Source: Gemmatimonadaceae bacterium (GTDB lineage Bacteria > Gemmatimonadota > Gemmatimonadetes > Gemmatimonadales > Gemmatimonadaceae). From it: a stretch of DNA of 64,000 nt. A program made the position numbers and the translations under genes. Positions 14,663 through 64,000 of the stretch are shown here, in pieces. The notes beneath the pieces are model-generated. The model saw only the letters and a program-made list of their open reading frames with translations. It did not search any database and was not told where the DNA came from. Within the stretch, counting starts at the first letter, position 1, and every line of letters begins with the position of its first letter. The DNA lies in the NCBI GenBank assembly GCA_036496605.1, contig DASXKV010000029.1:1-64000 (forward strand), in the 5' to 3' direction.

Positions 14663-15271
14663 ATGTCTTCGTTCTTCCGCACGGCATGTGCGACGCTGGC
14701 TGTGCTCACACTCTCGCTGGGCGTTTCGCGTAGCGCGCACGCGCAGTCTGCCGCCGCGCAATTCAAGATCGCGTTCGTGAACGTTGGGGCTCTACTCGAC
14801 AACGCGCCGGGAAAGGCGCAGGCCGAGTCCGCGTATGCGCGCGAGACGCGCGGCTACAGCGATCAGCTGAAGAAGATGAGCGATTCGCTGAACACGATGT
14901 TCGCGTCCTATCAGAAGCAGGAGGCAGCGCTCACCGCGACGCAGAAGGAGACGAAGCAGAAGTCACTGCGCGACCTGCAGGAGCAATTGCAGACCAGACA
15001 GCAGCAGCTCGCGCAACAGGCGCAGCAGAGACAGAACGAGCTGATGGCGCCGATCATGGAGCAGGTGAAGAAGGTTCTGGACGACATTCGCGCTGAGGAT
15101 GGCTACTCGATGATCATCACCGGTGATCCGAACTTGATTCTCTCGTATGATAAGAATCTTGATATCACCGATCGCGTCGTCGCGCGCCTCAAGACCGTCG
15201 CATCGACTCCGGCCAAGACGCCGGGCGCGCCGATCTCCGCACCCGCTGGTGTGACGCGAAAGCCGCAGTGA
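14663..15271 (+). CDS. skp: Periplasmic chaperone Skp/OmpH
   Basis: Skp carries unfolded outer membrane proteins across the periplasm to BamA. The 202-residue precursor has a clear signal peptide (about 1-27, ending SRSAHAQ), the family start [20 protein letters not shown], and a long Gln/Lys-rich coiled coil (about 65-135) that forms the tentacle arms. It closes with a conserved segment ([20 protein letters not shown]) typical of OmpH-like proteins, then a short Pro/Ala tail. It follows bamA by 12 nt, with ggag upstream of its ATG. Its stop overlaps the GTG of lpxD. Confidence 0.92.
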
Positions 15272-16350
15272 TTCAGGGAGCATCGTCGCGCGAAAACGGC
15301 GGTGAGGGCGGTATCGTCCTCACCGCTGACGTTATTGCGACCGAAGTCGGCGGCCAGCTCGTTGGTGACCCCGCGGCACAGGTGCGCGGTATCGCTCCAC
15401 TCGATCGGGCGAGCGGCGACGAGTTGAGCTTTCTTGCATCACCCAAATACGTGCCGTTGCTTGCTGGTTCCCGCGCCGGCGTCGTGCTCGTCTCACCAGA
15501 GCTCGCGGAGTCCCCCGGTGCGGCGCGTGCGCGTATCGTCGTCGCGAAGCCTCACGACGCGTTGCTATCGCTTATCCCGCGCTTCTACAAGGCACGTCCG
15601 CTCGAGGCGGGAATTCACGTCACGGCCCGCATTGGTCGCGGCGTTCATTTTGGAGCTGATGTGCGCATCGGGCCTTATGCGGTCATCGAAGACGGCGCAG
15701 AAATCGGTGATCGTGTGGCGATCGACGCGCACGCGGTGATTGGATCCGGCGTGCAGATCGGGAGCGATTGCCACTTCTATCCGTCCGCGACCCTGTATAG
15801 TGGGACGGTCGTCGGCAAGCGCGTGATCGTGCACGCAGGCGCGCGGCTCGGCTCCGATGGATTTGGCTACGTGTTCCATGAAGGGCGGCACGATAAGATT
15901 CCGCACGTCGGCCGGTGCGTCATCGAGGACGACGTCGAGATCGGGGCGAATACGACGATCGACCGTGGGAGCATCGACGACACAGTGATTGGCGCCGGCA
16001 CCAAGATCGACAACCTGGTGCACATCGCGCACAACTGTCGAATCGGGCGGCTGTGCCTCATCATGGCGCAGGTCGGAATCGCAGGGTCGGTGCGTGTGGA
16101 GGATGGTTGCGTCCTCGCGGGACAGGTCGGAATCAGCGGACATCACACAATCGGGAAGGGCGCAACGGTCGCGGCACAGGCCGGCGTGTTCGGCGATGTT
16201 CCTGGCGGTCAGACCTGGTCTGGCTATCCGGCGCGACCGCATAAGGAAGCGCTGCGTGCGCACGCGGCGTTGTTCCGTCTCGCGCCACTGATGCGAAAGT
16301 TGGAAAAGCTGCTCGAATCGAATAACCGCGGAGCTGACAGCGACCGATGA
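15268..16350 (+). CDS. lpxD: UDP-3-O-acylglucosamine N-acyltransferase LpxD
   Basis: Third enzyme of lipid A synthesis: it adds a hydroxyacyl chain to the glucosamine nitrogen. The 360-residue protein has the N-terminal uridine-binding domain (about 18-110, [16 protein letters not shown] onward). A left-handed beta-helix of hexapeptide repeats follows (about 115-320), with the block [19 protein letters not shown] that is diagnostic of LpxD, then a C-terminal helix. The GTG at 15268 overlaps the skp stop and gives about 16 extra residues before the conserved start; no closer start codon is visible in frame. Confidence 0.95.
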
Positions 16351-17654
16351 CGCGTCGCACAGTTGCTCGCGCGACCGCACTCGAGGGTGTCGGGCTCCAC
16401 TTGGGCATGCCCTGCAGGCTGACGTTTCTGCCGGCGCCGAGCGGCGCCGGAATCGTGTTTCGGCGCGTGGATCTTCCGGGTTCGCCACTTATTGCTGCGC
16501 GCGTCGAGCACGCGGTGCTCACCGAACGACGCACGCAGTTGGGCATGGAGCCCGTTGCGGTGCACACCGTCGAGCACGTGCTCGCGGCGGTACTGGCGCG
16601 CGAACTGGACGACGTTGTGATCGAACTGAGTGGGCCGGAACCGCCCGTCATGGACGGGAGCGCCCAGCCGTTTGTGGACGCTTTGCGGCAGGGAGGGATC
16701 GCGGAGCAAGCCGGCGACGTGCACTATTTGCAGTTGCGCACGCCGGTGCGCGTCTGTGATGGCGATTCGATCTACGAGGCGCTACCGGCGACGTCACTCG
16801 AGTTGGATGTCACGATCGATTTTCCACATCCGCTCATCGGCAAGCAACGTGGCCGATATCGAGTGACCGCGGAGACATTCGAGCGCGAGTTGGCGCGAGC
16901 GCGAACGTTCGGTTTCATGCACGAAGTCGACGCCCTGCGGGCGAAGGGACTGATTCGTGGAGCATCGACGCAGAATGCAGTTGTCGTTGGGGAGAACGGC
17001 GTTGTTGACAATGAGCTCAGGTGGCCTGACGAGTTCGTCCGACATAAGGCGATGGACTGCGTAGGCGACCTGGCTCTGGCTGGGGCTCGGGTGCGCGCGC
17101 GCGTTCAGACGACAAAGCCGAGTCATCGAGGCACGGTGCTCCTCGTACGAGCGATGAAGGAGGCGGCCCGGGAGGGCGAGGCGGCGACGATGAAGGACCT
17201 AACGACGACCGAAATGAACCAGATCATGGAAGTCGAAGACATCATGAAGGTGCTGCCGCACCGGTACCCTTTCTTGCTCGTCGATCGCATTTTGGAGCTG
17301 GATCCCGGCAAGCGAGTGGTGGGTGTCAAGAACGTCACGATCAACGAGCCGTTTTTCCAAGGGCATTTCCCCGGTCATCCGATCATGCCGGGAGTGTTGA
17401 TCATCGAGGCGATGGCGCAGGTGGGTGGGATGCTGTTGTTAGGCGCGATCCCCGATCCGCAGAGTAAGGTCGTGTACTTCACATCCCTCAACAACGTGAA
17501 GTGGCGTCGTCCAGTGAAGCCGGGCGATCAGCTGCGTTTCGAGCTCGACATACTCCAGGTGCGCGGGCTGATGTGCAAGATGCAGGGTGTGGCGAAGGTG
17601 GACGGTGAGATCGTCGCCGAGGCCGAGATGGGCGCGATGGTGCGAGACCGATGA
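16347..17654 (+). CDS. lpxC: LpxC-FabZ bifunctional protein
   Basis: A fusion of two enzymes that share the hydroxyacyl-ACP pool. Residues 1-275 are LpxC, the zinc deacetylase that commits UDP-acyl-GlcNAc to lipid A. Its ligands and acid/base residues are visible as E76/H77 (HTVEH), H233/D237 (HKAMD) and H260. Residues 292-435 are FabZ, the 3-hydroxyacyl-ACP dehydratase of fatty acid synthesis, with catalytic H340 and E354 ([11 protein letters not shown]). A short linker joins them with no stop or frameshift. Similar fusions are known in Bacteroidetes. The ATG overlaps the lpxD stop. Confidence 0.95.
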
Positions 17655-18427
17655 GCGCGCGCGTTCACCAGACGGCGATCATCTCGAAGGACGCACAGTT
17701 GGGCCATGGTGTGGACGTCGGACCCTATGCGATCATCGGCGAAGGCTGCATCGTCGGCGACGAATGTCTGATCGGGGCGCGGGCTACGTTGGAGCGGAAC
17801 GTCATCCTCGAGCCCGGTGTCCGTATCGGCTCCGGGACGATCCTTGGTGGAGATCCCCAGGATCTCAAATACAAAGGGGAGCACACGACCGTGGAGATCG
17901 GCGAAGGGACGACGATTCGCGAATACTCAACGATCAATCGTGGCACGTCGCAGTCGTTCAAGACGACGGTCGGAAAAGCGTGCTTCATCATGTCGTACGT
18001 GCACCTGGCGCACGATTGTCACGTCGGTGACGGCGTGATCCTCGGCAATAACGTCCAGCTCGCGGGTCATGTGACCATCGACGACAAAGCAATCGTCTCC
18101 GGACAGTCCGCCGTTCACCAATTCGTGCAGATCGGACGCTATAGCTTCACGGGCGGCTGCTCGCGAGTCTCCAAGGACGTACCGCCTTACGTGAAAGCCA
18201 ACGGCAACCCGATTCGCTTATACGGATTGAACAAGGTGGGGCTGCAGCGGAACGGCATTTCGGAAGACGTGCAACGAGAGCTCAAGCGTGCCTATCGGCT
18301 CTTCTTCAATTCCGATTTGAATCTGTCGCAGGCTCGAGAGCGAGCCGAGGAAGAGCTCCAGCGCTTTCCGGAAGTGGAGGAGTTCTTGAGCTTCCTCGAT
18401 CGCAGCGATCGCGGACTGGTCATCTGA
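17651..18427 (+). CDS. lpxA: Acyl-ACP--UDP-GlcNAc O-acyltransferase LpxA
   Basis: First enzyme of lipid A synthesis. The 258-residue protein is a left-handed beta-helix of hexapeptide repeats starting at VHQTAIISKDAQLGHGV. It has the family segments GGDPQDLKYKGEHT and HLAHDCHVGDGVILGNN, the latter holding the catalytic histidine region. The sequence GGCSRVSKDVPPYVKANGNP leads into the C-terminal helical domain. Length is normal. It overlaps the end of the lpxC-fabZ gene by four bases (ATGA). Confidence 0.96.
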   Translation: MSARVHQTAIISKDAQLGHGVDVGPYAIIGEGCIVGDECLIGARATLERNVILEPGVRIGSGTILGGDPQDLKYKGEHTTVEIGEGTTIREYSTINRGTSQSFKTTVGKACFIMSYVHLAHDCHVGDGVILGNNVQLAGHVTIDDKAIVSGQSAVHQFVQIGRYSFTGGCSRVSKDVPPYVKANGNPIRLYGLNKVGLQRNGISEDVQRELKRAYRLFFNSDLNLSQARERAEEELQRFPEVEEFLSFLDRSDRGLVI

Positions 18428-18431
18428 CGTC

Positions 18432-19445
18432 ATGACAAAGCAACCGGGCGTGCGCGTCGGAGTGATCGGTGCCGGTGCACTCGGCTACCATCACGTCCGC
18501 ATTCTGCGCGATGTACCAGACGCGCGGCTGATCGGCTTTTACGAGTCGCGCGCGGATCGCGCAACGGCGGTGGCGAAAGAGCTCGGCGTACGCGCCTACG
18601 ATCGGCTCGAGGAGCTCCTCGACGCGGTGGACGCGGCAACGGTCGTGGTCCCGACGCCGGCGCACTATGAGGTCGCCAAGGCGGCGTTGGCGCGCGGCAA
18701 GCATTTACTCATCGAGAAGCCGATTGCGGCGACGCTCGCGGAGGCGGACGAGCTCGTGGCGATCGCGCGCCAAACGGGCGCGCTGATTCAGACAGGACAC
18801 GTCGAGCGGTTCAATCGGGCGATTCGCGCTGCGCTGCCGCACGTCGAGAAAGCGCGGTTCATCGAGAGCGATCGCCTCGCGCCCTTCAATCCGCGCGGCG
18901 CCGACGTCGCCGTCGTGCTCGACCTGATGATTCACGACATCGATCTCGTGCGCACGCTCGTCGGCGCGCATGTACGCGACGTGTCGGCAGTGGGGGTGCA
19001 GGTGTTGACGCCCTTCGTCGACATCGCCAATGCACGCCTGCGATTCGAAGACGGCGCCGTCGCGAACATCACGGCGAGCCGAGTTTCTCGCGAGCGGCTG
19101 CGCAAGGTCCGCATCTTTCAGGAGAGCGGCTATCTGTCCCTCGATCTTGCTGCGGGGGAGGGAGAATTCTTCCGTCTTCGACGCGACGTCGACTTCGCGG
19201 AGCTGGCCAAGGGCGCGCAGGCGATCGAAGCGTTCGTCGAGCGCGTGCCGCTCACGGCGCCCGAGGGTGAACCGCTACGTCTCGAGTTCGAGAGCTTCCT
19301 CGAGGCGGTGCGAGGATCGGCGCTGGTGACGGTCAGCGGCGAAGATGGTCGCGAAGCGCTCGCGGTTGCGCTCACGATTGTGAGTGAAATCGAACGAACT
19401 TTGCCGTCGCTCGCCGCCGGCACACAAGTCGCCGCCGGTGCGTGA
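18432..19445 (+). CDS. Gfo/Idh/MocA oxidoreductase, GnnA-like by position
   Basis: A 337-residue NAD(P)-dependent sugar dehydrogenase with a Rossmann fold (GVIGAGALGYHH, about 10-21), the family motif EKPIAATLAEAD (about 96-107) and a C-terminal substrate domain. In Acidithiobacillus ferrooxidans, gnnA and gnnB lie between lpxA and lpxB. They make UDP-GlcNAc3N, so lipid A gets amide-linked chains at position 3. The same position here suggests GnnA. However, no gnnB aminotransferase is beside it, so a different sugar oxidation is possible. It starts 4 nt after lpxA and overlaps lpxB by 8 nt. Confidence 0.7.
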   Translation: MTKQPGVRVGVIGAGALGYHHVRILRDVPDARLIGFYESRADRATAVAKELGVRAYDRLEELLDAVDAATVVVPTPAHYEVAKAALARGKHLLIEKPIAATLAEADELVAIARQTGALIQTGHVERFNRAIRAALPHVEKARFIESDRLAPFNPRGADVAVVLDLMIHDIDLVRTLVGAHVRDVSAVGVQVLTPFVDIANARLRFEDGAVANITASRVSRERLRKVRIFQESGYLSLDLAAGEGEFFRLRRDVDFAELAKGAQAIEAFVERVPLTAPEGEPLRLEFESFLEAVRGSALVTVSGEDGREALAVALTIVSEIERTLPSLAAGTQVAAGA

Positions 19446-20589
19446 CGTGCTTTTCGTCGCTGGCGAGGCCTCCGGCGACCTGCATGCGGCTGGCGTGGCG
19501 AGAGAGCTGCGCGCGCGAGGCGCGCCGTATCGACTCGTCGGCATCGGTGGTGATCAAATGCGCGAAGCCGGCGTGGAGCTGATCGAGCATGTCGAGCAGC
19601 TCGCGGTCATGGGCTTCGTCGAAGTCCTGCGTCATGTTCCGAAGCATTGGGCGCTGCTTCGCGATCTCAAGCAGCGCATTCGCAGCGGCAATACCGCGCT
19701 CGTCATGCTCATCGACTATCCAGGCTTCAATATGAAGCTCGCGGCAGCGGCGACCGCTGCCGGCGTACCGGTGCTGTATTACATCACGCCGCAGGTGTGG
19801 GCGTGGGGAGCGGGCCGCCTGGCGAAGCTCGCGCAGACGGTAACCCGTGCCGCGGTGATTCTGCCATTCGAGGAGAAGCTGCTGAGTGAACACGGTGTCC
19901 CGACGACGTTCGTTGGCCATCCCTTGCTGGACCGTGCCGAGCGTTTGCCGGCACGTGCCGAAGCGCGCGCACAGCTGGGGGTGCCTGACGAGTCGACACT
20001 GCTGGCGCTATTTCCGGGGAGCCGGGCACAGGAAATCGCTCGACATCTCGAGCCGTTTGTCGCGACAGCGCAGGAGCTCGAGCGGCGATGTCCGGGATTG
20101 CGCGTCGTCGTAAGCGCCGCGCCGCACGTGTGGTTGGATGGATCGGCGTGTCCATATCCAATCGTGCGGTCGGCATCGTTCTCGGTACTTCGCGCCGCCG
20201 ACGCAGCGATGTGCAAGAGTGGGACGACGACGCTGGAGGCGGCAGTGGCGGGATGTCCGCTGGTCGTGGCGTATCGAACCAACGCGGTGACCTATGCGGC
20301 GGCGCGGCGGCTCGTAAAGATTCCTCACATCGGACTCGTGAACGTCGTCGCCGGGCGAGAGGTCGCGCCAGAGTTCGTGCAGGGCGCGCTCGTGCCTAAC
20401 GCCGTTGCCACTGCGCTCGAGCCGTTGCTGGATCGCAATAGCGCGGCACGCTCGCGGATGGTCACTGAGCTGGCGCGCGTGCGCGACTCACTCGGTACGC
20501 CTGGTGCCGCTCGGCGCGTGGCGGCGATTGTGATGGAGCTGGCAGGGGCAGAGTCGCAACGGCGCCTCGGCGTGGGAGCGACGGGTTGA
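19438..20589 (+). CDS. lpxB: Lipid A disaccharide synthase LpxB
   Basis: GT19 glycosyltransferase that joins lipid X to UDP-diacylglucosamine to make the lipid A disaccharide at the inner membrane. The product shows VLFVAGEASGDLHAAGVA at its N-terminus, YYITPQVWAWGAGRL in the middle and CKSGTTTLEAAVAGCPLVVAY near 260-280, all typical of LpxB. The frame is open to 19384, but the GTG at 19438 is preferred. It begins right at the conserved domain and reduces the overlap with the upstream gene to 8 nt. About 383 residues. Confidence 0.94.
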   Translation: MRDVLFVAGEASGDLHAAGVARELRARGAPYRLVGIGGDQMREAGVELIEHVEQLAVMGFVEVLRHVPKHWALLRDLKQRIRSGNTALVMLIDYPGFNMKLAAAATAAGVPVLYYITPQVWAWGAGRLAKLAQTVTRAAVILPFEEKLLSEHGVPTTFVGHPLLDRAERLPARAEARAQLGVPDESTLLALFPGSRAQEIARHLEPFVATAQELERRCPGLRVVVSAAPHVWLDGSACPYPIVRSASFSVLRAADAAMCKSGTTTLEAAVAGCPLVVAYRTNAVTYAAARRLVKIPHIGLVNVVAGREVAPEFVQGALVPNAVATALEPLLDRNSAARSRMVTELARVRDSLGTPGAARRVAAIVMELAGAESQRRLGVGATG

Positions 20590-21284
20590 GCGAGCTCCGA
20601 TCGACGTCCGCGGAATCGGCAGCGCGCGTCGAGGAGCGCGCGTCGCGCGCGCGCGAGCGAAAGCTGCGTTGGATCGTGCGGCTCGGCGTCCCGCTTGTAC
20701 GCCTGCTCGGCGGCACGTGGAGGATCCGGCTGATCAACAATGAGACGAGCGTCGACGCAATGCGACGGGAGCGCCGGCCCATCGTCTTTGCTTTGTGGCA
20801 TGGCGACCTGCTGCCGCTGCTGTACCACCATCGCAATGAAGGAGTCTCGGTGCTGATCAGCGAACACCGTGATGGTGAACTGATCGCACGAACCGCCGAG
20901 TCGTTAGGCTTCCGGACCGTGCGCGGGTCGACGTCGCGTGGCGCGAGCCGGGCGCTCGTGGGCCTGGCGCGCGAGCTGGCAGCGGGCCACGACGTGGCCA
21001 TCACCCCGGACGGGCCGCGCGGGCCCGCACGCTCGTTTGCGCCGGGCGCACTGATCGCTGCGCAACGCGCGAACGCGCCCGTGATCGCCGTCGGTCTGTG
21101 GGCGGACTCCGCGTGGCGACTCGGCACCTGGGATCGATTCAAGATTCCGCGGCCGTTCACTCGCCTGCGGATCGCGTACTCGGATCCGATAATGCTCGAC
21201 GCGACTAGCGCACGCGCGGCCGTGGAGGAAACGTCGCGCTTTGAAGCGCTGATGTTACAGACGGAGCAGCTCGCCCGTGCGTGA
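20586..21284 (+). CDS. Lysophospholipid acyltransferase family protein (DUF374)
   Basis: A 232-residue acyltransferase-like protein of the DUF374/LPLAT family. Key segments are IVFALWHGDLLPLLYHH (about 66-82), VRGSTSRGASRALVGLAREL and ITPDGPRGPARSFAPGAL. In several phyla such genes sit in lipid A operons and are thought to add an acyl chain, taking the place of LpxL/LpxM. That role is an inference from context here. The TTG start overlaps the lpxB stop (TTGA). The first 20 residues are charged and may anchor it to the membrane face. Confidence 0.82.
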   Translation: MSELRSTSAESAARVEERASRARERKLRWIVRLGVPLVRLLGGTWRIRLINNETSVDAMRRERRPIVFALWHGDLLPLLYHHRNEGVSVLISEHRDGELIARTAESLGFRTVRGSTSRGASRALVGLARELAAGHDVAITPDGPRGPARSFAPGALIAAQRANAPVIAVGLWADSAWRLGTWDRFKIPRPFTRLRIAYSDPIMLDATSARAAVEETSRFEALMLQTEQLARA

Positions 21285-22314
21285 TCTCGTGGAGCGCGTG
21301 TGGTTCGGCGATGACGTCTTCGCCCGCGTCGCGCGCGCCGCGCTCGTGCCAATGGAAGTCTTGTATCGCGTGTCCATCGGCGTGCGCCAGACCCTGTACG
21401 ACACCGGGGTGTTCACGTCGCATGAGCCGAAGATACCAGCGGTGAGCGTCGGTAACGTGAGCGTTGGAGGTACAGGAAAGACGCCGGTGGCGGCGTGGAT
21501 TGCCGCGGAGTTGGTCGAACGCGGCGCGCGGCCAGCGATCGTGTTGCGAGGATACGGAGACGACGAGCCGCTCGTTCACGCGCGCCTCAATCCCGAGGTG
21601 CCGGTGATAGTTGCTGCCGATCGCGTCGCGGGAATTGCCGAGGCGCGCAAGGCTGGCGCCAACATCGCTGTACTGGACGACGCATTTCAGCATCGGCAAG
21701 TGTCGCGCGAAGCTGACGTCGTTTTGGTGAGCGCGGATCGCTGGTCACCAACGCCGCGGCTGCTGCCGGCGGGTCCGCTGCGCGAACCACTCGCCGCGCT
21801 TCGGCGTGCGACGATCATCGTCGTGACGCGCAAAGCGGCGAGCGATGGGGAAGTCGGTGCCGTCAACGAGTCACTTGCCGAGATCGCGCCGCGCATTCCT
21901 CGGTCGACCATTCGGTTGTCACTGGACGAATTGCGCAGCGTGTCCTCGGCCAGTGGCGCTCGTCGCGCGATCTCGGATGTCGCGGGGCGACCGGTGCGAA
22001 TTCTCACCGCGATCGGGGATCCGCGCGCATTGTTGCGCCAAATCGAGATGCTCGGCGCGGTTGTAACGGCCGAGATCTACGCCGACCACCATCATTTCCG
22101 ACGGGAGGAAGTCGCGCGTTTCGTCCGCTCGATACCCTCCGAGGGGCTGGCCATCTGCACGCTGAAAGACGCGGTAAAACTCGCCGAGCTCTGGCCTCGC
22201 GAAGCGCCGACGTTATGGTATGTTTCTCAGCGCGTTAGCGTCGAGCGCGGAGTCGGTGGAGTCGAGCACATCCTTGATGACCTGACCCGCGTTCCCGCCC
22301 GTCGCGAGCGCTGA
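21277..22314 (+). CDS. lpxK: Tetraacyldisaccharide 4'-kinase LpxK
   Basis: Phosphorylates the 4' position of the lipid A disaccharide at the inner membrane. The 345-residue protein has an N-terminal membrane-associated segment and the unusual P-loop SVGGTGKTP (62-70). The family segments [11 protein letters not shown] and [20 protein letters not shown] and a C-terminal [11 protein letters not shown] block also match. The GTG start overlaps the upstream acyltransferase by 8 nt. It closes the run of lipid A genes; Kdo transferase (waaA) is not in this window. Confidence 0.94.
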
Positions 22315-53571: not shown

Positions 53572-54602
53572 AAGCCGGGGCGATCGCCGGTGGGGCTCTC
53601 CGACGACGAGCCAACCGCCTCATCCAAGCGGCGGCGAAGCTCGCGCATCTCCGCTCGCTGACCGGCTATCTGCTCCCCGAGGAGTCCCGCGGCGCCAAAG
53701 ACACCGCCGAGGATGAGACAAGTTTGGATGATCGTCCACACCCAGCGCTGGCCGACGTCGTAGATCCAGAGGCGCGCCAGCGCCAGAAGTCCGGCGAGCA
53801 CACCGACAACGAAGATCACCGCGCCGAGCATCCCGAAGGCAAGCAACGGTTTCTGAGCAAATCGCAGCTCGAACCACACCGAGAGCATGTCAAGCACGCC
53901 GATCGGAATCCGATGCCAGCTCGCGAACTTAGAGCGACCCGCATGGCGTGGATAGAGCGGCACCGGGACTTCAGCAACCGTGAAACCCTGCGCGGCGGCA
54001 ATCACGATCATGTAGCGGTGCCAATCCGGCCGCACCGGCAGAACTTCCATGATCTCGCGTCGATAGGCCTTGACGCTGTTGAGATCCTTGACCTTCACGT
54101 CGAACAACAGACGGCTGAGTCGGTTGTATATCCCGGACACCAGCGCCTTCTCGTACTTCCCTTCCTTGAACCCCGTGACCATGTCCGCTTCGTCGGCGAG
54201 AATGGGTGCGACGAGATGCGGAATGTCTTCGGGCTTGAATTGCAGGTCGGCGGGATAGAAAACGAGAACTCGCCCACGTGCGTGCAGATAGCCGGTACGA
54301 AGGGCGTCAGCGATGCCGCGGCGGCTCCGATGCCGCGCGAGTTTCAGAAATGGATAGCGCCGAGTGAGCTGCTGGAGAACCGGCCAAGTGTCATCCTCCG
54401 AGCCATCATCGATAACGACGACCTCGAAGGAGACGTTAGGCACCGAATGAAAAGTCGCGTCTGCCTGTTCCATGAACAGTGGCAGATTCTCCGACTCGTC
54501 TTTGGCGGGGACGAGGACGGAGACGTCGACGATCGAGGGGCGAGGGGCTAGGGGTGTTGGGGCTAGGGCGGGCACGGTGGTACTCGCGGTCATGCCGCTC
54601 AC
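53568..54602 (-). CDS. Family 2 glycosyltransferase with C-terminal membrane helices
   Basis: A 344-residue GtrB/ArnC-like GT2 enzyme that probably charges undecaprenyl phosphate with a sugar. Visible are VSVLVPAKDESENLPLFMEQ (about 27-46), VVVIDDGSEDDTWPVL and RGRVLVFYPADLQF (the DxD-equivalent region, about 109-122). KDLNSVKAYRREIM precedes two membrane helices (about 255-280 and 288-315). Two in-frame ATGs occur at the N-terminus (residues 1 and 4). It overlaps the stop of rpoN and is followed by the membrane protein at 52618, a plausible pair for exporting a lipid-linked sugar. Confidence 0.86.
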   Translation of the reverse strand: MSGMTASTTVPALAPTPLAPRPSIVDVSVLVPAKDESENLPLFMEQADATFHSVPNVSFEVVVIDDGSEDDTWPVLQQLTRRYPFLKLARHRSRRGIADALRTGYLHARGRVLVFYPADLQFKPEDIPHLVAPILADEADMVTGFKEGKYEKALVSGIYNRLSRLLFDVKVKDLNSVKAYRREIMEVLPVRPDWHRYMIVIAAAQGFTVAEVPVPLYPRHAGRSKFASWHRIPIGVLDMLSVWFELRFAQKPLLAFGMLGAVIFVVGVLAGLLALARLWIYDVGQRWVWTIIQTCLILGGVFGAAGLLGEQIAGQRAEMRELRRRLDEAVGSSSESPTGDRPGF

Positions 54603-56059
54603 ACCCGCTTGCGCATGCGTGCGGAGAGCACCCCGAGTTGGTCGCGATACTTCGCGACGGTGCGTCGGGCGATCTGGACGCCACTCTCCTTCAGAATGTT
54701 GACGATCGCCTGATCCGTGAGGGGATGCTTCGGATCTTCCTCGGAGACGAGCTTCTCGATCTGCGCTTTGATGCCCCGAGCGGAAACGTCCTCGCCGGCG
54801 GTGGTCGAGAGACCCGATGAGAAGAAGAATTTCAACGGCAGGACGCCGCGCGGCGTCTGCACGTATTTCTCATTGGTGACGCGGCTGACCGTCGACTCGT
54901 GCATATTGATGACTTCGGCGACCTCGCGCAGCGTGAGCGGCTTGAGGTACTGCACGCCCTTCTCGAAGAAATCGCGTTGCCGGTCGACGATGTAGTTCAT
55001 GACCTTGAGCATCGTCTGGCGCCGTTGCTCGATGGCCTGAATCATCCAGTTCGCGGAGTTGAGCTTGTTCGAGATGAACTCCTTGCTCTCGCCTTCGAAC
55101 TTCTTCTTGTCGCGGGCGATCTCCTGGTAGGCCTTGCTGAGCTTGAGTCGCGGGAGATTTGCGTCATTCAGAAAGACGTGATAGCGGCCGTCGATCTTCT
55201 CGACAATCAGATCAGGGATGATGTAGTTGTCGCTGGCACTGCTATACATCAAGCCCGGCTTCGGATCGAGCTTCTTGATCTCGTCGGCGGCGCGTTGGAC
55301 GTCTGCGGGACTGATGCCGAAGCGCTTCGAGATCTCGCTCCAGCGGTGGTTGATCAGCTCGTCGAAGCAATCCCGAACGAGCCGAAACGGTACCGACTGC
55401 TCGAGCCCCGCCTCGCGAAGCTGAAGCATCAAGCACTCGCGCAAGTCGCGCGCGCCAACACCCGGCGGGTCGAGGCTCTGAATGACCGTGAGCATTTGCT
55501 CAACGTCGCCGAGCGCGTAGTGCGGTATTTCTTCGAGATCAGGGTTGAGCTCCTCGGCGACCTTGGTGATCGTTTCGTTGATGCTGATGAGGATATCGTT
55601 CAGCGGACACGCGAGATAGCCATCCTCGTTGATGTTTCCGATGAACTCCTCGGCGAGCAGCTGCTGGCGCGCTGACAGCTCGAGCAGAGTGATCTGGTCG
55701 CGCAGGTGATCGGAGAGGTCGCGCGTGTCGACCGTGACGGGCTCATAGTACTCGCGCTCTTCGTGCTCTTCGCGGCGGCCACCGGCGTCGAAGCCGTCGA
55801 GCAGAATCTCTTCCCAGTCGATCTCGTCGTTTGCCTTGTCCTGTTCAGTCGCTGCTTCAGTTTCGGGACTCTCCTCCTCTTCCTCTTCCTCTTCCTCCAT
55901 CTCGACCATCTCGAGGAAGGGGTTGTTCAAGAGCTCCTGCTTGAGATGCTGTTGGAGATCCAGCAGCGGCATATAGAGCAGATCCATCGCCTGATAGAGG
56001 CGTGGGTTGATCTTGAGTTCCTGTTTGAGCTGCGTGCTTTGCTGGAGGCCAGCTTTCAT
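54599..56059 (-). CDS. rpoN: RNA polymerase sigma-54 factor
   Basis: Alternative sigma factor that needs an AAA+ activator to open promoters. The 486-residue protein has the Gln/Leu-rich region I (LQQSTQLKQELKINPRLYQA, about 5-24) and an acidic region II with a Glu run near 57-62. The core-binding domain follows, then the helix-turn-helix, and the RpoN box ARRTVAKYRDQLGV lies close to the C-terminus. The arrangement lptB-rpoN matches many proteobacteria. Start and stop overlap its neighbours by four bases on both sides. No bEBP activator gene is in the window. Confidence 0.96.
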   Translation of the reverse strand: MKAGLQQSTQLKQELKINPRLYQAMDLLYMPLLDLQQHLKQELLNNPFLEMVEMEEEEEEEEESPETEAATEQDKANDEIDWEEILLDGFDAGGRREEHEEREYYEPVTVDTRDLSDHLRDQITLLELSARQQLLAEEFIGNINEDGYLACPLNDILISINETITKVAEELNPDLEEIPHYALGDVEQMLTVIQSLDPPGVGARDLRECLMLQLREAGLEQSVPFRLVRDCFDELINHRWSEISKRFGISPADVQRAADEIKKLDPKPGLMYSSASDNYIIPDLIVEKIDGRYHVFLNDANLPRLKLSKAYQEIARDKKKFEGESKEFISNKLNSANWMIQAIEQRRQTMLKVMNYIVDRQRDFFEKGVQYLKPLTLREVAEVINMHESTVSRVTNEKYVQTPRGVLPLKFFFSSGLSTTAGEDVSARGIKAQIEKLVSEEDPKHPLTDQAIVNILKESGVQIARRTVAKYRDQLGVLSARMRKRV

Positions 56060-57378
56060 TGTACTTCCGATCCTCCATGACCGTGAAATGGCGGTGGTCC
56101 AGTGGGCCTAACCGGAGCCGGCAGGCCGCCGTTTGGTTCGCCATCACGCCCGTTGCCATCGGTGTTCGAGAAGCGCGCGCGCAGTCGAGCGGTCAGCGTC
56201 GGGCCGAGATAGATGTCCGCGACAGTATCGTCAAAAACCAGCTCGCGGACTGTCCCGGAAACCTTTACCTGGCCATCGAACATGATGTACGCGCGATCCA
56301 CAATGTCCAGGGTTTGCTCCACGTTATGGTCGCTGATCAACACACCGATTCCACGGTGACGCAAATTGGCGACGATGCTCTGAATATCATGCACGGCAAT
56401 CGGATCGACGCCAGCGAAGGGCTCGTCCAACATCATGAACTTTGGTCGCGAGACGAGCGCTCGGGTGATCTCGAGTCGTCGCCGCTCGCCGCCGGACAGA
56501 GCGAATGCTTTGCTCTGTCGAAGGTGCTTGATGCTCAGCTCGTCCAGTAGCGTTTCAAGACGCGTTCGCCGCTCGGCACCGGAAATCGGCAACGTCTCGA
56601 GGATCGCCAGGATGTTGTCCTCCACCGAGAGCTTTCGAAAGATGGAGGGCTCCTGGGAAAGATAGCCGACTCCGCGTCGCGCTCGCTTGTACATCGGCAT
56701 GGTCGTGATATCCACACCGTCCATGCTGATGTGCCCTGCAAAGGGCTGGATCAACCCCACGATCATGTAGAAGGTGGTGGTCTTCCCCGCTCCATTCGGG
56801 CCCAGCAATCCGACAATCTCCCCCTGTTGCAATCGGAGGGCCACGTCGTTCACAACCTTCCGGCGACGGTAAATCTTTACGAGACCGGAAGCTTCGAGCA
56901 CGCTGACCTTGGTCTGGGCGGCTTCGCGCTTTGCCGGCGTCGCTCTGATTGCCGCAAAATCCTTCGCCGGCGTGAGGTGCTCACCGGTCTGGCGGAGCGT
57001 CGCCGCCACCTCACGGCGCTTTTCCTGAATCGCGCGCCAGTAAGTCTCGGTGATCCGAATCTTCGCGTCTGGCGTGCTGAGGCCGCTCTGCGGCAGAACG
57101 ATTACCCCCTCGGAAACGAGGCGCGGGAGGACGGACGCGGCGAGGTGCTTTCTCACTTCGTCGAGGCTCAGGCGGCCTGCCTCTCGCTCGGCGTCGCGCC
57201 CGTCGGCGCGCATTGCCGCGAGGTGGTCGTCGCGATAGATGATTGCGGCCTGATTGAAGTCCGAGCAACCCGCGGAATCGGCGGCGATGATCAGCGCGTG
57301 CAGCGTGAGCGCGAGCGAGCGGTCGCCGTGCTTGGCGTGATCCAGAAGTCGCTTGAGCCGCTCCGGAATATCGCTCAT
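56056..57378 (-). CDS. lptB: LPS export ATPase LptB with N-terminal extension
   Basis: ATPase that drives LPS from the inner membrane through LptFG. The ABC domain covers about 157-395, with Walker A GLLGPNGAGKTTTFYMIVG, signature LSGGERRRLEITRALV, Walker B FMMLDEPFAGVDPIAV and the switch residue in LISDHNVEQT. These are LptB marks. Unlike ordinary LptB (about 240 residues), this one is 440. About 155 residues precede the ABC domain, starting MSDIPERLKRLLDHAKHGDR, mostly helical and charged, with no recognised domain. A Pro/Gly-rich tail of about 45 residues follows. The ATG overlaps the lptA stop, supporting the long form. Confidence 0.9.
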   Translation of the reverse strand: MSDIPERLKRLLDHAKHGDRSLALTLHALIIAADSAGCSDFNQAAIIYRDDHLAAMRADGRDAEREAGRLSLDEVRKHLAASVLPRLVSEGVIVLPQSGLSTPDAKIRITETYWRAIQEKRREVAATLRQTGEHLTPAKDFAAIRATPAKREAAQTKVSVLEASGLVKIYRRRKVVNDVALRLQQGEIVGLLGPNGAGKTTTFYMIVGLIQPFAGHISMDGVDITTMPMYKRARRGVGYLSQEPSIFRKLSVEDNILAILETLPISGAERRTRLETLLDELSIKHLRQSKAFALSGGERRRLEITRALVSRPKFMMLDEPFAGVDPIAVHDIQSIVANLRHRGIGVLISDHNVEQTLDIVDRAYIMFDGQVKVSGTVRELVFDDTVADIYLGPTLTARLRARFSNTDGNGRDGEPNGGLPAPVRPTGPPPFHGHGGSEVQ

Positions 57379-58730
57379 GGACGACGCACTCCCGGTACGG
57401 CGCCGGGCCGCCCCGGCGGTCGCGCGGGAGGCCTCGAATTCGGGCGCGTTTTCGTCGTGTCCGCCGATGGCTCGATGAAGATGCCCGAGACTTTACCATC
57501 GACGGCGATCTGCGCGACTTTCTGCTCGTTGAAGTCGATCGTGATCTTGTGTCCCCTCACGTAATTGATCGCGGGTCTGTGCAACGACGTGTCTTGCGGC
57601 GCCATGTGGTAGAAGGCTTCCGCGCTATCCGTCGATATGAGTTTGCGGATCGCGGGTCCTTTCGTGGTGTCGACGGGGGGTATCGTATCAAACAAGGCGA
57701 CGATGGTATCACCGCGAAGCCAATTGGTCGTGTCGGGCTTGAACGCCGTCGAATCGGCACGGCCCTCCGCAAATGCCTTGTGCAACGCATGCACCTCATG
57801 CACTCGCTGACCCGGCATCTGCACGTCGAGTGAATCGGCGATCATGTTTTGCGTTGGCGACAAGGCCCGCGCCCGGCTCTTCCCCCATGCGAATGCGCGC
57901 TCGAGCGAATCTGACTTGATGCGGAGGTCGATCGTGTCGGCGGTGAGCGTAAGATCCTGGCTGTTTGCCTGCGCGCGGGCGCGCGCGATGACGCGCTCGA
58001 GCTTCTTGTCCTTCGAGAAGAGATCGATGTTCACGCCGATGAGCCGAAAGGGCCGGCCGTGTGTGCCGTTGACGATCGGGTTGCGCATCAACTGCATGAT
58101 CTCGGTGCCGGTGTTGATGAAAGATGAATCGGCGCTCGCGTTGACCTCCGGCCGGGTGATGACGACGTTGCCGGAGCCGTAGATCAAGCTATCGCCGTCC
58201 ATGAAGATCGTGTTGGCGACGACATCGATGGGAGGCTGCTCTTTTCCCGACGTGTCGCGCTGGACGATCGTCACCGTCGGACGACCAGTGGCGAGCGTTT
58301 GGGCTCGCGTGCGAATACGTGGAACGAGACGCTTGTAGTCGACCTGTGGCCCCTTGAGCGTCGATCCACTTGGGAGCCGAGCATTCACGTTCCCGGCGGC
58401 GACGATACGCTCCTCAGCCGTGTAGTAGGTGAGGTAGTCCGACGTCATGCTGAGGCGCGGCTCGTCGTAGCTGACGTGCCCGACGAGGAAGTCGCGCTTC
58501 TCGTCGCCATAGAGCTCGGCGCTGTCGGCCTTGAGGGTGATCTGCCGGCTGGGGCAGACGACCAGCAAGCCTCCCCCGACGAAGGTGTTGTACTCCTTGC
58601 TCGGCAGCTGAAGGTTGTTGACCCGCGTGTTCGGCAGCTGCTTCATCGTGCAGCGCGTTCGCTCCTGTGCGCGAGCTGTCGTCGCGAGTAACACGAGCGT
58701 CGCTGCGATGGACACTGACGCACAACGCAT
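57375..58730 (-). CDS. lptA: LptA/OstA-family periplasmic LPS bridge protein
   Basis: A 451-residue exported protein whose signal peptide (MRCASVSIAATLVLLATTAR then AQE) precedes OstA-type beta strands. Clear repeats are LTYYTAEERIVAAGNVNARL and FMDGDSLIYGSGNVVITRPE (about 80-205). E. coli LptA is only about 185 residues, so this is a longer, multi-OstA version that might span more of the periplasm. The C-terminal Pro/Arg tail is low complexity. The ATG at 58730 overlaps the lptC stop; the 17 residues upstream in the open frame are not used. Confidence 0.85.
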   Translation of the reverse strand: MRCASVSIAATLVLLATTARAQERTRCTMKQLPNTRVNNLQLPSKEYNTFVGGGLLVVCPSRQITLKADSAELYGDEKRDFLVGHVSYDEPRLSMTSDYLTYYTAEERIVAAGNVNARLPSGSTLKGPQVDYKRLVPRIRTRAQTLATGRPTVTIVQRDTSGKEQPPIDVVANTIFMDGDSLIYGSGNVVITRPEVNASADSSFINTGTEIMQLMRNPIVNGTHGRPFRLIGVNIDLFSKDKKLERVIARARAQANSQDLTLTADTIDLRIKSDSLERAFAWGKSRARALSPTQNMIADSLDVQMPGQRVHEVHALHKAFAEGRADSTAFKPDTTNWLRGDTIVALFDTIPPVDTTKGPAIRKLISTDSAEAFYHMAPQDTSLHRPAINYVRGHKITIDFNEQKVAQIAVDGKVSGIFIEPSADTTKTRPNSRPPARPPGRPGAVPGVRRP

Positions 58731-59296
58731 CAGGAGCCGGGCAGCGTAATCGGCGCGCTGCCGCCGCACATTCGCAAGCACTTGAAGTGCGTGAGATTCG
58801 GATCCGCCGTAAACCCTATTCCGCGCTGCTCCCGTTCACCCGCTTTGACTTCGAACGTCGTATCACTTGTGACTTCGTTGCCGAGTTGATTGAACTTGAC
58901 ATGCGGCGACTTAAGCGTTTTTCCATCGAGCGTCGTGATGACGACGTTGCCGAAACCTTCGAGAATCTGCGTGCGGGTGTCGTAGATGCCGCGATTCGCG
59001 CGCATCGTACCGTTAGGCACACCCGTTTCGGTATTGAACTTCACGCGCGCGTTGCGGAAATCGAATTTCGTCTGGTCGTTGTAGACGTACATCGTATCCG
59101 CTTGCAGCTCGCCTTTCTGAACGCCGTTCGCGGTCAGCAAAGTACGCACGCCATAGCCAATTTGCTCGGCCGTGTCGGCGTCGCCACGGGGACTCACCGG
59201 TGGACCTTTGGGCTCGTTGCAGGCTCCGGCGGCACCCACCGCACATCCGACGGCGAGACATAGGGTAAGGTGCCCAACGCGCGTCGACTGCATCAT
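58730..59296 (-). CDS. lptC: LptC-family lipoprotein
   Basis: Binds LPS at the inner membrane and hands it to LptA. The 188-residue precursor has a lipobox near GAAGAC (Cys about 26), so it is likely a lipoprotein, whereas E. coli LptC uses a membrane helix. The body has LptC/OstA strands (NGVQKGELQADTMYVYND, YDTRTQILEGFGNVVITTLD). Similar lipoprotein forms occur in other phyla (the YrbK/LptC lipoprotein type). Two consecutive ATGs open the frame. The start overlaps the kdsD stop (ATGA). Confidence 0.85.
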   Translation of the reverse strand: MMQSTRVGHLTLCLAVGCAVGAAGACNEPKGPPVSPRGDADTAEQIGYGVRTLLTANGVQKGELQADTMYVYNDQTKFDFRNARVKFNTETGVPNGTMRANRGIYDTRTQILEGFGNVVITTLDGKTLKSPHVKFNQLGNEVTSDTTFEVKAGEREQRGIGFTADPNLTHFKCLRMCGGSAPITLPGS

Positions 59297-60258
59297 ACCA
59301 CGCGCGCTCGCATCATATCGTGCAGATGTACGACTCCCACCAGTTCCTCTCGCTCGTTCACGACTGGCATTGCCATGATACCGATTTGCTCCATGCGATA
59401 GACGACGGCGCTTGCGAGCTCGCCGGTACGCGCCAGCTTTGGAGTGCGAGTCATGACACCGCGTACCGGAGCCGACAGGAAGTCATCGCTGCGCTCGACC
59501 AGCCGGCTAAGGTCTCCGGCGGTCAATACCCCGTCGACGTGAGTTCGTGCGTCAACGACTACAGCGATCCCGCGGCGCTCCGCAATCATGACGATTGCCT
59601 CCCGCATCGTGTCTCCGTTGCGGAGAATAGGCAGTTGATCCCGCAGCATCACTTCCTCGACCTTGGTGACGAGGGAGCGACCCAGGGAGCCTCCCGGGTG
59701 GATCCGCGCGAAGTCTTCGCGGCGAAAGCCCTTTTCCTGGAGGAGAGCGACGGCAAGGGCGTCCCCGAGGGCGAGCGCGGCGGTCGTGCTCGTCGTCGGG
59801 GCGAGGTCGTGCGGACAGGCCTCCTCTCTGACGCTGGCGTCGAGGACGACATCGGAGTGCCGAGCGAGAGCAGATTTCACGTCTCCGGTGATCGCGATGG
59901 TGCGAACGCCAAAGCCCTTCAGGTGTGCCAGGAGAGCGAGCAGCTCGTCGGACTCCCCGCTCTTGGAGATGAGGATCGCGACGTCCTCGTTGCCGACGAT
60001 GCCGAGATCGCCGTGGACGCTGTCGACAGGATGAAGGAAGGTCGCCGGCGTTCCGGTAGACGTTAGCGTTGCGGCGATCTTACGGCCGACGAGACCTGAC
60101 TTCCCGACGCCACACACTATCAAGCGGCCCTTGCACGCGTGCATGAGCTCCACGGCGCGCGCAAATTCGTCGCCGAGGCGCTTCTCCATCGCGGCAAGCG
60201 CGTCCCGTTCGAGCCGAAGCACACGTCGACCGCGCTCGAGAATCTCGTCGCGTTTCAT
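59293..60258 (-). CDS. kdsD: Arabinose-5-phosphate isomerase (KdsD/KpsF)
   Basis: Makes D-arabinose 5-phosphate from ribulose 5-phosphate, the first step to Kdo. The 321-residue protein has an SIS domain (about 35-165) with VCGVGKSGLVGRKIAATLTS and ISKSGESDEL, then the family stretch HDLAPTTSTTAALALGDALA. Two CBS domains (about 205-320) follow. The frame is open to 60369 inside kdsC; the ATG at 60258 gives the normal start and overlaps the kdsC stop. Confidence 0.95.
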   Translation of the reverse strand: MKRDEILERGRRVLRLERDALAAMEKRLGDEFARAVELMHACKGRLIVCGVGKSGLVGRKIAATLTSTGTPATFLHPVDSVHGDLGIVGNEDVAILISKSGESDELLALLAHLKGFGVRTIAITGDVKSALARHSDVVLDASVREEACPHDLAPTTSTTAALALGDALAVALLQEKGFRREDFARIHPGGSLGRSLVTKVEEVMLRDQLPILRNGDTMREAIVMIAERRGIAVVVDARTHVDGVLTAGDLSRLVERSDDFLSAPVRGVMTRTPKLARTGELASAVVYRMEQIGIMAMPVVNEREELVGVVHLHDMMRARVV

Positions 60259-60890
60259 CGTCGCTGACCACGACCAGCGCGAGAGCGACGCTTCGACTTC
60301 GCGCCGCGCCGGCCATCGCTTCCTTCCACTGACCGTTCGGCGACGTACGCCTCGGTCAGCGTTTCCCACTCACCGCGCGCTTTGAGCAGTAGCTCGGCGA
60401 ATTCACGAACGGCTCCGCGGCCGCCACCTCTCGAGAGCTGAAATCGAGAGACGCTCAACACTTCGGGAACCGCGTTAGCCACAGCGACGGGCAACCGCAC
60501 GGTGCGCATGATCGCCAGGTCGGGAAAATCGTCGCCGATGAACGCCGTTTCGTCTGCGCCGATTCCGTGACGCTCGAGGATTCTGCGCAGGGCGGGCAGC
60601 TTGCGGGCGTACGAATCCTGGGCGACATCCTCGATCTCGAGTTCGGAGGCGCGAAGCCTAACGCTGTCCGAAACGCGACCGGTGACGATGGCGACGCGAA
60701 TGCCTGCTTTGCGGAGGAAGTGAATCCCCAAGCCATCCTGAATATCGTAGCGCTTGAATTCGAGCGGCGTCCCGTCGACCGCGCCGAGGTAGATGCCACC
60801 ATCGGTGAGTACGCCGTCGACGTCGATACCGACGAGACGAATCGCTCGCGCGGTCGCGGCGTCGACCGCCGATGCCGTCTGCGGAGTCAT
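60255..60890 (-). CDS. kdsC: Kdo-8-phosphate phosphatase KdsC
   Basis: HAD-family phosphatase that removes phosphate from Kdo-8-P. The 211-residue protein has the catalytic aspartates D23 and D25 in [16 protein letters not shown], then [30 protein letters not shown] and [12 protein letters not shown]. The last 30 residues form an extra, strongly basic tail (about 180-211, many Arg/Lys), not seen in the usual 170-190-residue enzyme. The ATG at 60890 was chosen over upstream frame extension inside kdsA; it overlaps the kdsA stop. Confidence 0.93.
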
Positions 60891-61732
60891 CGCTTTGCGA
60901 GCTCCCACAGCTGAATCAGTCGGTGCACGAGTGCATCGAGCTTGTCGAGCGGGATCATGTTCGGGCCGTCGCTTGGTGCGTGGTCCGGATCGGGGTGCGT
61001 CTCCATGAAAAGGCCATCGGCTCCCGCGGCGACCGCGGCTTGCGCGAGCGGTGGAATGAACTCCCGCGCGCCGCCACTGGCTCCGCCGAACCCCTTGCCC
61101 GGCTGCTGGACGCTGTGCGTTGCGTCGAAGACTATGGGCACGTTGCACGCGGAGCGCATGCGAGCGAACGAGCGCATGTCGACGACGAGATCGCCATAAC
61201 CGAAGAACGTGCCGCGTTCCGTGAGAGCGATTTCAGGAGTGGCGAGTGGCGAGTTGCGAGTGGCCAGTGCTGCGGACTCGCCTAACGCGGCTGCTCTGAC
61301 TTTCTCGACGGCGCCCTTCATTCCCTCCGGGTGCATCCATTGTCCCTTCTTGATATTCACCGGTTTTCCGGTCGCGCCAGCGGCGACGAGGAGGTCGGTC
61401 TGGCGGCAGAGGAAGGCCGGTATCTGCAGGACGTCGACAACCTCGGCAGCCGCCGCGCATTGCTCGGGGAGATGCACGTCGGTCAACACGGGGAGTCCAG
61501 TCTTGTCACGTACGCGCGCCAGCGCTGCGAGACCCTCATCGAGGCCTGGCCCGCGCGTGGCATCCTGATTAGAGCGGTTCGCCTTGTCGAAACTCGCTTT
61601 GTAGATAATGCCACCCGGGACGCGCTCGGCGAGGCGGGCTAGGTGCTCGCCGACGCGAAGATTCAGCGCGTCGGACTCGAGTACGCACGGACCGGCAATG
61701 AGAAATAGCGCATCGCTGCGAAAGCGGACCAT
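60887..61732 (-). CDS. kdsA: Kdo-8-phosphate synthase KdsA
   Basis: Condenses PEP with arabinose 5-phosphate to make Kdo-8-P. The 281-residue protein has [20 protein letters not shown] (about 12-31), [13 protein letters not shown] and [11 protein letters not shown]. It also has [37 protein letters not shown] and [17 protein letters not shown]. Between EKVRAAAL and IALTERG there are about 14 extra residues ([13 protein letters not shown]) encoded by a heptanucleotide tandem repeat. The frame is open back into pyrG; the ATG at 61732 lies 7 nt after the pyrG stop and gives the normal start. Confidence 0.95.
61236..61263. repeat. Heptanucleotide tandem repeat inside kdsA
   Basis: Four head-to-tail heptamers with consensus CGAGTGG on the plus strand (61236-61242, 61243-61249, 61250-61256, 61257-61263), two copies each with one change. 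The repeat encodes the Leu-Ala-Thr-Arg-Asn-Ser-Pro insert of KdsA when read on the minus strand. Confidence 0.8.
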
Positions 61733-61739
61733 TGCCGCG

Positions 61740-64000
<2,261 letters not shown>

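Follow-up and report, generated by a model that had tools for sequence, protein, structure and literature searches.

A lone gnnA between lpxA and lpxB in Gemmatimonadota, with an unlinked DegT aminotransferase as its probable partner

The window analyzed here, a stretch of 64,000 nucleotides from a Gemmatimonadaceae bacterium, encodes a GnnA dehydrogenase between lpxA and lpxB. No aminotransferase gene accompanies it, and the one full-length DegT aminotransferase of the genome lies elsewhere. We consider it probable, if well short of certain, that GnnA and this unlinked DegT, which would here be shared with a wbp pathway, together make UDP-GlcNAc3N and an amide-linked lipid A.

The gene is part of an operon with the order bamA-ompH-lpxD-lpxC/fabZ-lpxA-gnnA-lpxB-DUF374-lpxK, as read from open reading frames, NCBIfam and Pfam. 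The names lpxD, ompH and bamA are putative and assigned by place and sequence. From lpxD onwards, the operon comprises:

15268..16350, + strand: lpxD (open reading frame and homologues in the conserved operon)
16347..17654, + strand: lpxC-fabZ fusion (NF009667, 505.5 bits against a cut-off of 465)
17651..18427, + strand: lpxA, UDP-GlcNAc (or GlcNAc3N) 3-acyltransferase (NF003657, 325.5 bits against a cut-off of 226)
18432..19445, + strand: gnnA, GnnA-like UDP-GlcNAc 3-dehydrogenase of the Gfo/Idh/MocA family, 337 aa (open reading frame, Pfam, PDB and fold searches)
19438..20589, + strand: lpxB, lipid-A-disaccharide synthase (PF02684, 308 bits)
20586..21284, + strand: DUF374 acyltransferase, by family an LpxJ-type late acyltransferase (PF04028, 101 bits)
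21277..22314, + strand: lpxK (PF02606, 226 bits)

As the initial annotation proposed, a Gfo/Idh/MocA oxidoreductase gene sits between lpxA and lpxB (18432-19445, + strand). The GFO_IDH_MocA profile, PF01408, matches its product at 110.9 bits against a cut-off of 24, placing an NAD-binding domain in the protein. The accompanying remark that the partner aminotransferase is missing beside the gene was also correct: open reading frames, NCBIfam and Pfam revealed no aminotransferase gene in the bamA-to-lpxK block. The gnnA reading frame starts with ATG, and 4 nt separate the lpxA stop from this start. At the other end, the lpxB frame is open from 19384 and likely starts at GTG 19438 or 19447, so that the gnnA stop (19443-19445) overlaps or abuts it. 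Junctions this tight suggest that the three genes are probably translated jointly. The DUF374 protein gave no match in an NCBIfam scan, and we take it, by its family, to be an LpxJ-type late acyltransferase. DUF374 and LpxJ are mentioned together in PMC6148475. The lpxC and fabZ genes are fused in the window (16347-17654), yet appear as two separate matches at three other loci (L074, L079 and L082).

The window enzyme is GnnA. A search of PDB sequences returned 7bvj at 182 bits, with the runner-up chain at 83 bits. We modeled the enzyme with AlphaFold2 from a 31-sequence alignment (pLDDT 92.9), and a fold search of the PDB placed 7bvj and 7bvk at ranks 1-5, with TM scores of 0.85-0.87 by query and 36-37% identity. 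Both entries are titled UDP-N-acetylglucosamine 3-dehydrogenase GnnA, from Acidithiobacillus ferrooxidans. Identity dropped to 22% at rank 6, and WlbA (3q2k) appeared no earlier than rank 26, at 18% identity; by fold, GnnA is clearly nearer than WlbA and the inositol dehydrogenases. The residues E95-K96-P97, D164 and H168 are invariant among 31 sequences, and we presume that the EKP lysine and the D...H pair are the catalytic residues of the Gfo/Idh/MocA superfamily. The GnnA-like assignment made at the outset is thereby strengthened, and the grouping with an unrelated sugar dehydrogenase that would have spoken against it did not appear. Instead, a 98-row tree (SH-aLRT support only) puts the window enzyme within a single GnnA family that includes enzymes encoded beside gnnB. 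The WbpB-like protein of the same genome, which shares 29% identity with the window enzyme, falls outside this family together with four related rows. WbpB was considered as an identity for the window enzyme and is rejected by the PDB sequence scores, the GnnA tree and the fold ranks. Judging by its relatives in sequence, the enzyme would act on the 3-OH of UDP-GlcNAc.

The lone gnnA is common among sampled members of the phylum. In a sample of 150 Gemmatimonadota genomes searched at E <= 1e-40, we found a gnnA-like gene in 128, with a single match in each. The nearest named loci, L127, L133 and L165, identify the phylum as Gemmatimonadota. The 128 take in genome G103, whose distant copy lies outside the lpx operon, and five genomes of family f9, in which the best lpxA match is on a different contig. 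Among the 30 loci that we chose and fetched, 27 have gnnA alone between lpxA and lpxB. That 27 of 30 further loci repeat the arrangement indicates that it is more than chance. At two loci (L064 and L065), gnnA precedes lpxB and no lpxA lies within the fetched stretch. At L066, from G103, an f5 genome without an lpx gnnA, a distant GnnA relative adjoins a DegT outside the lpx operon; this locus carries two DegTs, one of which groups with WbpE. Where gnnA is absent, lpxA and lpxB close up: they adjoin in 17 of 18 such loci, with ~20-290 nt between the matches, and at the other (L078) lpxB was not detected. LpxA itself is present in 147 of the 150 genomes. The three with no LpxA match at 1e-25 are G018, G120 and G125; G120 and G125 also have neither gnnA nor any DegT at 1e-40, and may have lost lipid A.

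A search of the window's genome for a DegT-family aminotransferase, as suggested in the initial annotation, yielded one full-length gene, unlinked to gnnA. The genome (97.4% complete) has ten PF01041 matches, and the sole full-length DegT among them is G000:C44:98764-99873, which lies outside the window and scores 372 bits over positions 3-360 of 360. The nine remaining matches score at most 56 bits. This DegT sits beside carB in a cluster of acetyltransferase, WbpB-like protein, DegT and nucleotide-sugar dehydrogenase, an arrangement (wbpD-wbpB-degT-wbpA-like) that we read as the Wbp pathway to UDP-GlcNAc3NAcA. Its best PDB match is WbpE. Taken alone, the wbp-like cluster and WbpE as the best solved relative would make the C44 DegT a WbpE and not a GnnB. 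In both of our DegT trees it falls outside the clade of Pseudomonas aeruginosa WbpE (3nyu), and it is also outside the clade of the gnnA-linked DegTs. The wbpD-wbpB-degT-wbpA-like order is kept in all six fetched loci of family f1, and in eight fetched f2 loci the cluster holds a different, distant Gfo/Idh protein. On its own contig (G000:C44:88000-102633, L019), the wbp-like cluster adjoins carB near the rpoA ribosomal block.

The distribution of this DegT across the phylum, and above all within family f5, connects it to gnnA. With orthologues called at E <= 1e-60 for DegT and E <= 1e-50 for WbpB, a DegT orthologue is present in 123 of the 150 genomes (114 of the 128 that carry gnnA, 9 of the 22 that do not). 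In f5, it is found in 24/24 genomes with gnnA beside lpxA, a count that includes G034 with a DegT at 45% identity only, against 0/11 without. A control gene, wbpA-like, shows 24/24 and 9/11 for the same two groups. Being near-universal (141/150 sampled genomes), wbpA says little about the presence of a wbp pathway and served as a control only. In a phylogeny of the remaining operon proteins, with support from FastTree, the gnnA-less f5 genomes form a group of nine and a group of two on a long branch, and the eleven absences therefore represent one or two loss events and not eleven independent ones.

Within f5, the DegT is also separated from the pathway that surrounds it on C44. WbpB orthologues occur in 69 of the 150 genomes, and none was found at 1e-50 in any f5 genome. 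Near the DegT, none of ten fetched f5 loci had a homologue of wbpB or wbpD, and five had one of wbpA; a motif scan of these ten for a Gfo/Idh gene near the DegT returned only one 696-aa open reading frame, antisense to a secA-like frame. Two f5 loci, L183 and L200, were read gene by gene. In both, the DegT is flanked by putative TPR lipoprotein-like genes, with a presumed secA-like gene further on, a setting that resembles outer-membrane biogenesis and not a wbp cluster. A role for the DegT as WbpE only is thus unlikely in f5, where the search gave no WbpB orthologue and the ten loci showed no Gfo/Idh gene near the DegT apart from the antisense frame; in f1 and f2 it may still hold. Of the 54 f1 genomes, 24 show a single DegT at 1e-40 among the scored candidates. 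All but one of these 24 carry gnnA, and each of the 23 that do also carries a WbpB orthologue. If both dehydrogenases feed an aminotransferase of this family, it has to be one and the same enzyme.

These observations bear on the choice left by the initial annotation, that either gnnB is elsewhere or the enzyme makes a different sugar. Because orthologues of the sole DegT co-occur with the lpx gnnA in f5, the first option is the better supported, and Mesorhizobium loti (M. loti, below) offers a precedent; the second is less so, though G006, with no full-length DegT, would fit it. We propose that GnnA would use NAD+ to oxidize UDP-GlcNAc at its 3-OH, yielding a 3-keto sugar, and that a non-adjacent aminotransferase would swap the keto group for an amine, giving UDP-GlcNAc3N. 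LpxA would then attach a 3-hydroxyacyl chain via an amide bond, LpxC, LpxD and LpxB would act next, and a secondary chain would come from the DUF374 protein if that is LpxJ-like. In the window's genome, the aminotransferase would most likely be the C44 DegT, which would serve both the UDP-3-keto-GlcNAc made by GnnA and the UDP-3-keto-GlcNAcA made by WbpB.

GlcNAc3N might instead be made by another PLP enzyme, a distant DegT or a member of another class, with the C44 DegT confined to the wbp pathway. We judge this unlikely, although it would account for both kinds of exception to the co-occurrence. The nine gnnA-less genomes that retain a DegT orthologue are mostly from f2 (seven), with one (G033) in f1. 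The DegT lies within a wbp-like cluster in the four gnnA-less f2 loci that we fetched; in G033 it is on C61, with WbpB and WbpA on C124. Kept without gnnA in f2 and G033, the DegT would have another job there. The opposite exception, gnnA without a DegT orthologue, is seen in 14 of 128 genomes, namely G006, G007, G011, G094, G103, G106, G119 and seven of family f7, in which only one of eight gnnA-encoding genomes has the orthologue. G006 (99% complete) has a partial PF01041 match only (E 4e-28) and no full-length DegT, G094 has no PF01041 match and G106 a distant one. Three f7 genomes (G042, G056 and G072) are each shown with one other DegT, and these DegTs, like that of G119, are outside the clade of the C44 DegT. 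A different PLP enzyme would leave unexplained the 24/24 against 0/11 in f5, where the WbpB orthologue is absent, and the other PF01041 matches of the window's own genome score 56 bits or less.

Lone gnnA genes recur in other bacteria. A cross-phylum scan gave at least 585 matches, and we fetched the best 80 as loci. Among those 80, 28 have a DegT (gnnB-like) beside gnnA, 32 have gnnA followed directly by lpxB with no DegT (three of these are Gemmatimonadota) and 20 are others. At two lone loci that we inspected, a gene of ~800 nt between lpxA and gnnA encodes LpxI. The GnnA tree does not separate lone from paired enzymes but mixes them, so pairing has evidently changed repeatedly. We searched 21 of the 32 lone-gnnA genomes together with four paired controls, and all 21 encode, at a distance from gnnA, a GnnB-type DegT (E <= 5e-90). 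Within ~1.5 kb of the best hit, 16 of the 21 show no homologue of wbpA, wbpB or wbpD, with contig ends cutting some of the stretches. A 66-row DegT tree included 20 of the best hits (the fragment L246 was omitted). A clade of 35 rows (97/95) comprises twelve of the 20, 22 DegTs from Gemmatimonadota and one second hit, and the other eight best hits fall outside it (L227, L228, L232, L235, L240, L241, L243 and L245). In the same tree, 17 of 18 gnnA-linked DegTs are in a separate clade and P. aeruginosa WbpE is in a third. The Gemmatimonadota DegTs do not form one clade here; an earlier sampling grouped 31 of them.

A larger sample was available for Nitrospirota, the phylum of G156 (Nitrospirota by locus L132), in which gnnA is present in 136 of 148 genomes. 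We searched these for a non-adjacent DegT at E <= 1e-158, using a profile of the unlinked clade that included two Nitrospirota DegTs from lone genomes and may favor the lone side, and found one in 34/70 lone genomes, 5/66 paired genomes and 2/12 without gnnA. The difference between lone and paired genomes has a Fisher p of 1e-7, with genomes counted as independent and some pairs perhaps hidden by contig ends. Among the 36 lone genomes without a top-scoring DegT, a weaker one is present in 16; for the other 20, the listed matches include none.

Those 20 genomes, like G006 and like the stable retention of gnnA in 128 of 150 Gemmatimonadota, are what one would expect if GnnA worked without an aminotransferase and gave another C3-changed sugar, either 3-keto or a C3 epimer after re-reduction, for use by LpxA or a later step. 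We regard this as improbable. LpxA requires a nucleophile at C3, and a 3-keto sugar has none. Moreover, the GnnB-type DegT in 21/21 searched lone-gnnA genomes of other phyla and the co-occurrence of DegT with gnnA in f5 argue for an aminotransferase partner. A narrower form, in which GnnA lacks a DegT partner in some lineages only, C3 is changed in a non-amine way (an epimer or a re-reduced sugar) and LpxA or a later enzyme is adapted by changes that a position-wise comparison would overlook, seems to us less probable still.

The initial annotation also suggested comparing LpxA active-site residues, a check that proved uninformative because these positions hardly vary with gnnA. The nucleotide-site and catalytic positions that we compared differ little between genomes that have gnnA, genomes that lack it and gnnB loci, and none of them separates the gnnA and gnnA-less groups cleanly. 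A literature search for the residues by which a GlcNAc3N-selective LpxA recognizes the 3-amine did not yield them. Across the whole protein, 3 of 258 LpxA columns follow gnnA, no excess over BamA (8/788), LpxD (3/346) or LpxC (2/302). At residue 170 (C170 in the window, E. coli 174), 16 of 18 gnnA-less genomes have G; genomes with gnnA mostly have A, C or M there, and G in 5 of 28. We assume that E. coli position 174 lies beside the acyl-chain ruler. As a specificity residue this position was dropped, the protein-wide column count not being above background. An Ectothiorhodospiraceae genome (L107) has two copies of lpxA, the first accompanied by gnnA-gnnB and the second within an lpx cluster of the usual kind, which together would offer a natural comparison of LpxA acceptor choice.

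An LpxA with no residue change that tracks gnnA would be expected if the dehydrogenase supplied UDP-GlcNAc3N or its derivatives to a surface polysaccharide and lipid A kept an ordinary GlcN backbone. The partner DegT, whose neighbors are wbp-like genes at the f1 and f2 loci that we fetched, fits such a role as well. We nevertheless give it little credence: 27/30 fetched loci show gnnA coupled with both lpxA and lpxB, these two adjoin in 17/18 gnnA-less loci, and f5 keeps gnnA without a WbpB orthologue. That the dehydrogenase acts on a substrate other than UDP-GlcNAc, such as a later UDP-sugar of the pathway, is least credible of all, since its modest identity to characterized GnnA (36-37%) and its score of 192.5 bits against the archaeal UDP-N-acetylglucosamine 3-dehydrogenase model NF040723, under the curated cut-off of 450, stand against a single GnnA family in which paired enzymes are intermixed.

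Among known systems, the A. ferrooxidans GnnA-GnnB pathway from UDP-GlcNAc to UDP-GlcNAc3N is the obvious comparison, with the same enzyme family and the best fold match by far. In Acidithiobacillus, we take gnnA-gnnB to lie beside lpxA and lpxB. The window gnnA differs in having no adjoining gnnB and in its 36-37% identity, and the candidate aminotransferase is unlinked and belongs to a different clade from 17 of 18 gnnA-linked DegTs. The likeness to the WbpA-WbpB-WbpE-WbpD pathway, which makes UDP-GlcNAc3NAcA, lies in the genome's own DegT, found in such a cluster and with WbpE as its best PDB match; unlike in that pathway, the window enzyme is not WbpB and the DegT is outside the P. aeruginosa WbpE clade.

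That GnnA and GnnB make GlcN3N lipid A is established (PMC8036547). According to passages of two papers, M. loti has a gnnB unlinked from gnnA (PMC5644692) and a lipid A that contains GlcN3N (PMC8036547). M. loti thus resembles the present case in that gnnB is away from gnnA, and differs in that gnnA too is outside the lpx cluster, whereas the window gnnA is between lpxA and lpxB. Given this precedent, an unlinked gnnB is not new as such, and an adjoining gnnB is common but not defining. In Granulibacter bethesdensis, a passage of PMC8036547 lists one gnnA candidate, two gnnB candidates and a lipid A with one GlcN3N. The likeness is again a gnnA with separate aminotransferase candidates in a GlcN3N-containing organism; G. 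bethesdensis differs in being an Alphaproteobacterium, and its genetics are announced, not shown, in that passage. A Legionellaceae locus (L138) has gnnA directly before lpxB and no DegT beside it, and Legionella pneumophila lipid A contains GlcN3N by a passage of PMC8036547; together these lend slight favor to an unlinked DegT. Bdellovibrio was considered as another lone-gnnA organism with GlcN3N and set aside: L097 has the layout, but the relevant passages of two papers mention neutral lipid A only, with GlcN3N unnamed.

In the literature searched, which lacks most subscription journals, we found no lipid A structure or enzyme activity for Gemmatimonadota. Nor did we meet there a phylum-wide lone gnnA in the lpx operon that recurs elsewhere, a distinct DegT clade that goes with lone gnnA, or the likely sharing of that DegT with a wbp-type pathway. 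If GnnA and the unlinked DegT do act together, most sampled Gemmatimonadota, along with the lone-gene Nitrospirota, Desulfobacterota and Omnitrophota, would make lipid A with amide linkage at the 3-position, and amide bonds would be expected to withstand alkali and esterases better. The partner would then represent a second, unlinked lineage of GnnB-like aminotransferases, and in the window's family one enzyme would serve both a polysaccharide sugar and the backbone of lipid A. In Campylobacter jejuni, inactivation of gnnA/gnnB alters TLR4 activation and peptide sensitivity, by a passage of PMC8036547.

Elsewhere in the window, positions 54602-63434 on the - strand hold a sigma-54 gene, an ABC ATPase open reading frame of 440 aa and CTP synthase. 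By its gene order, this region may be an lpt/kds cluster for LPS export and Kdo.
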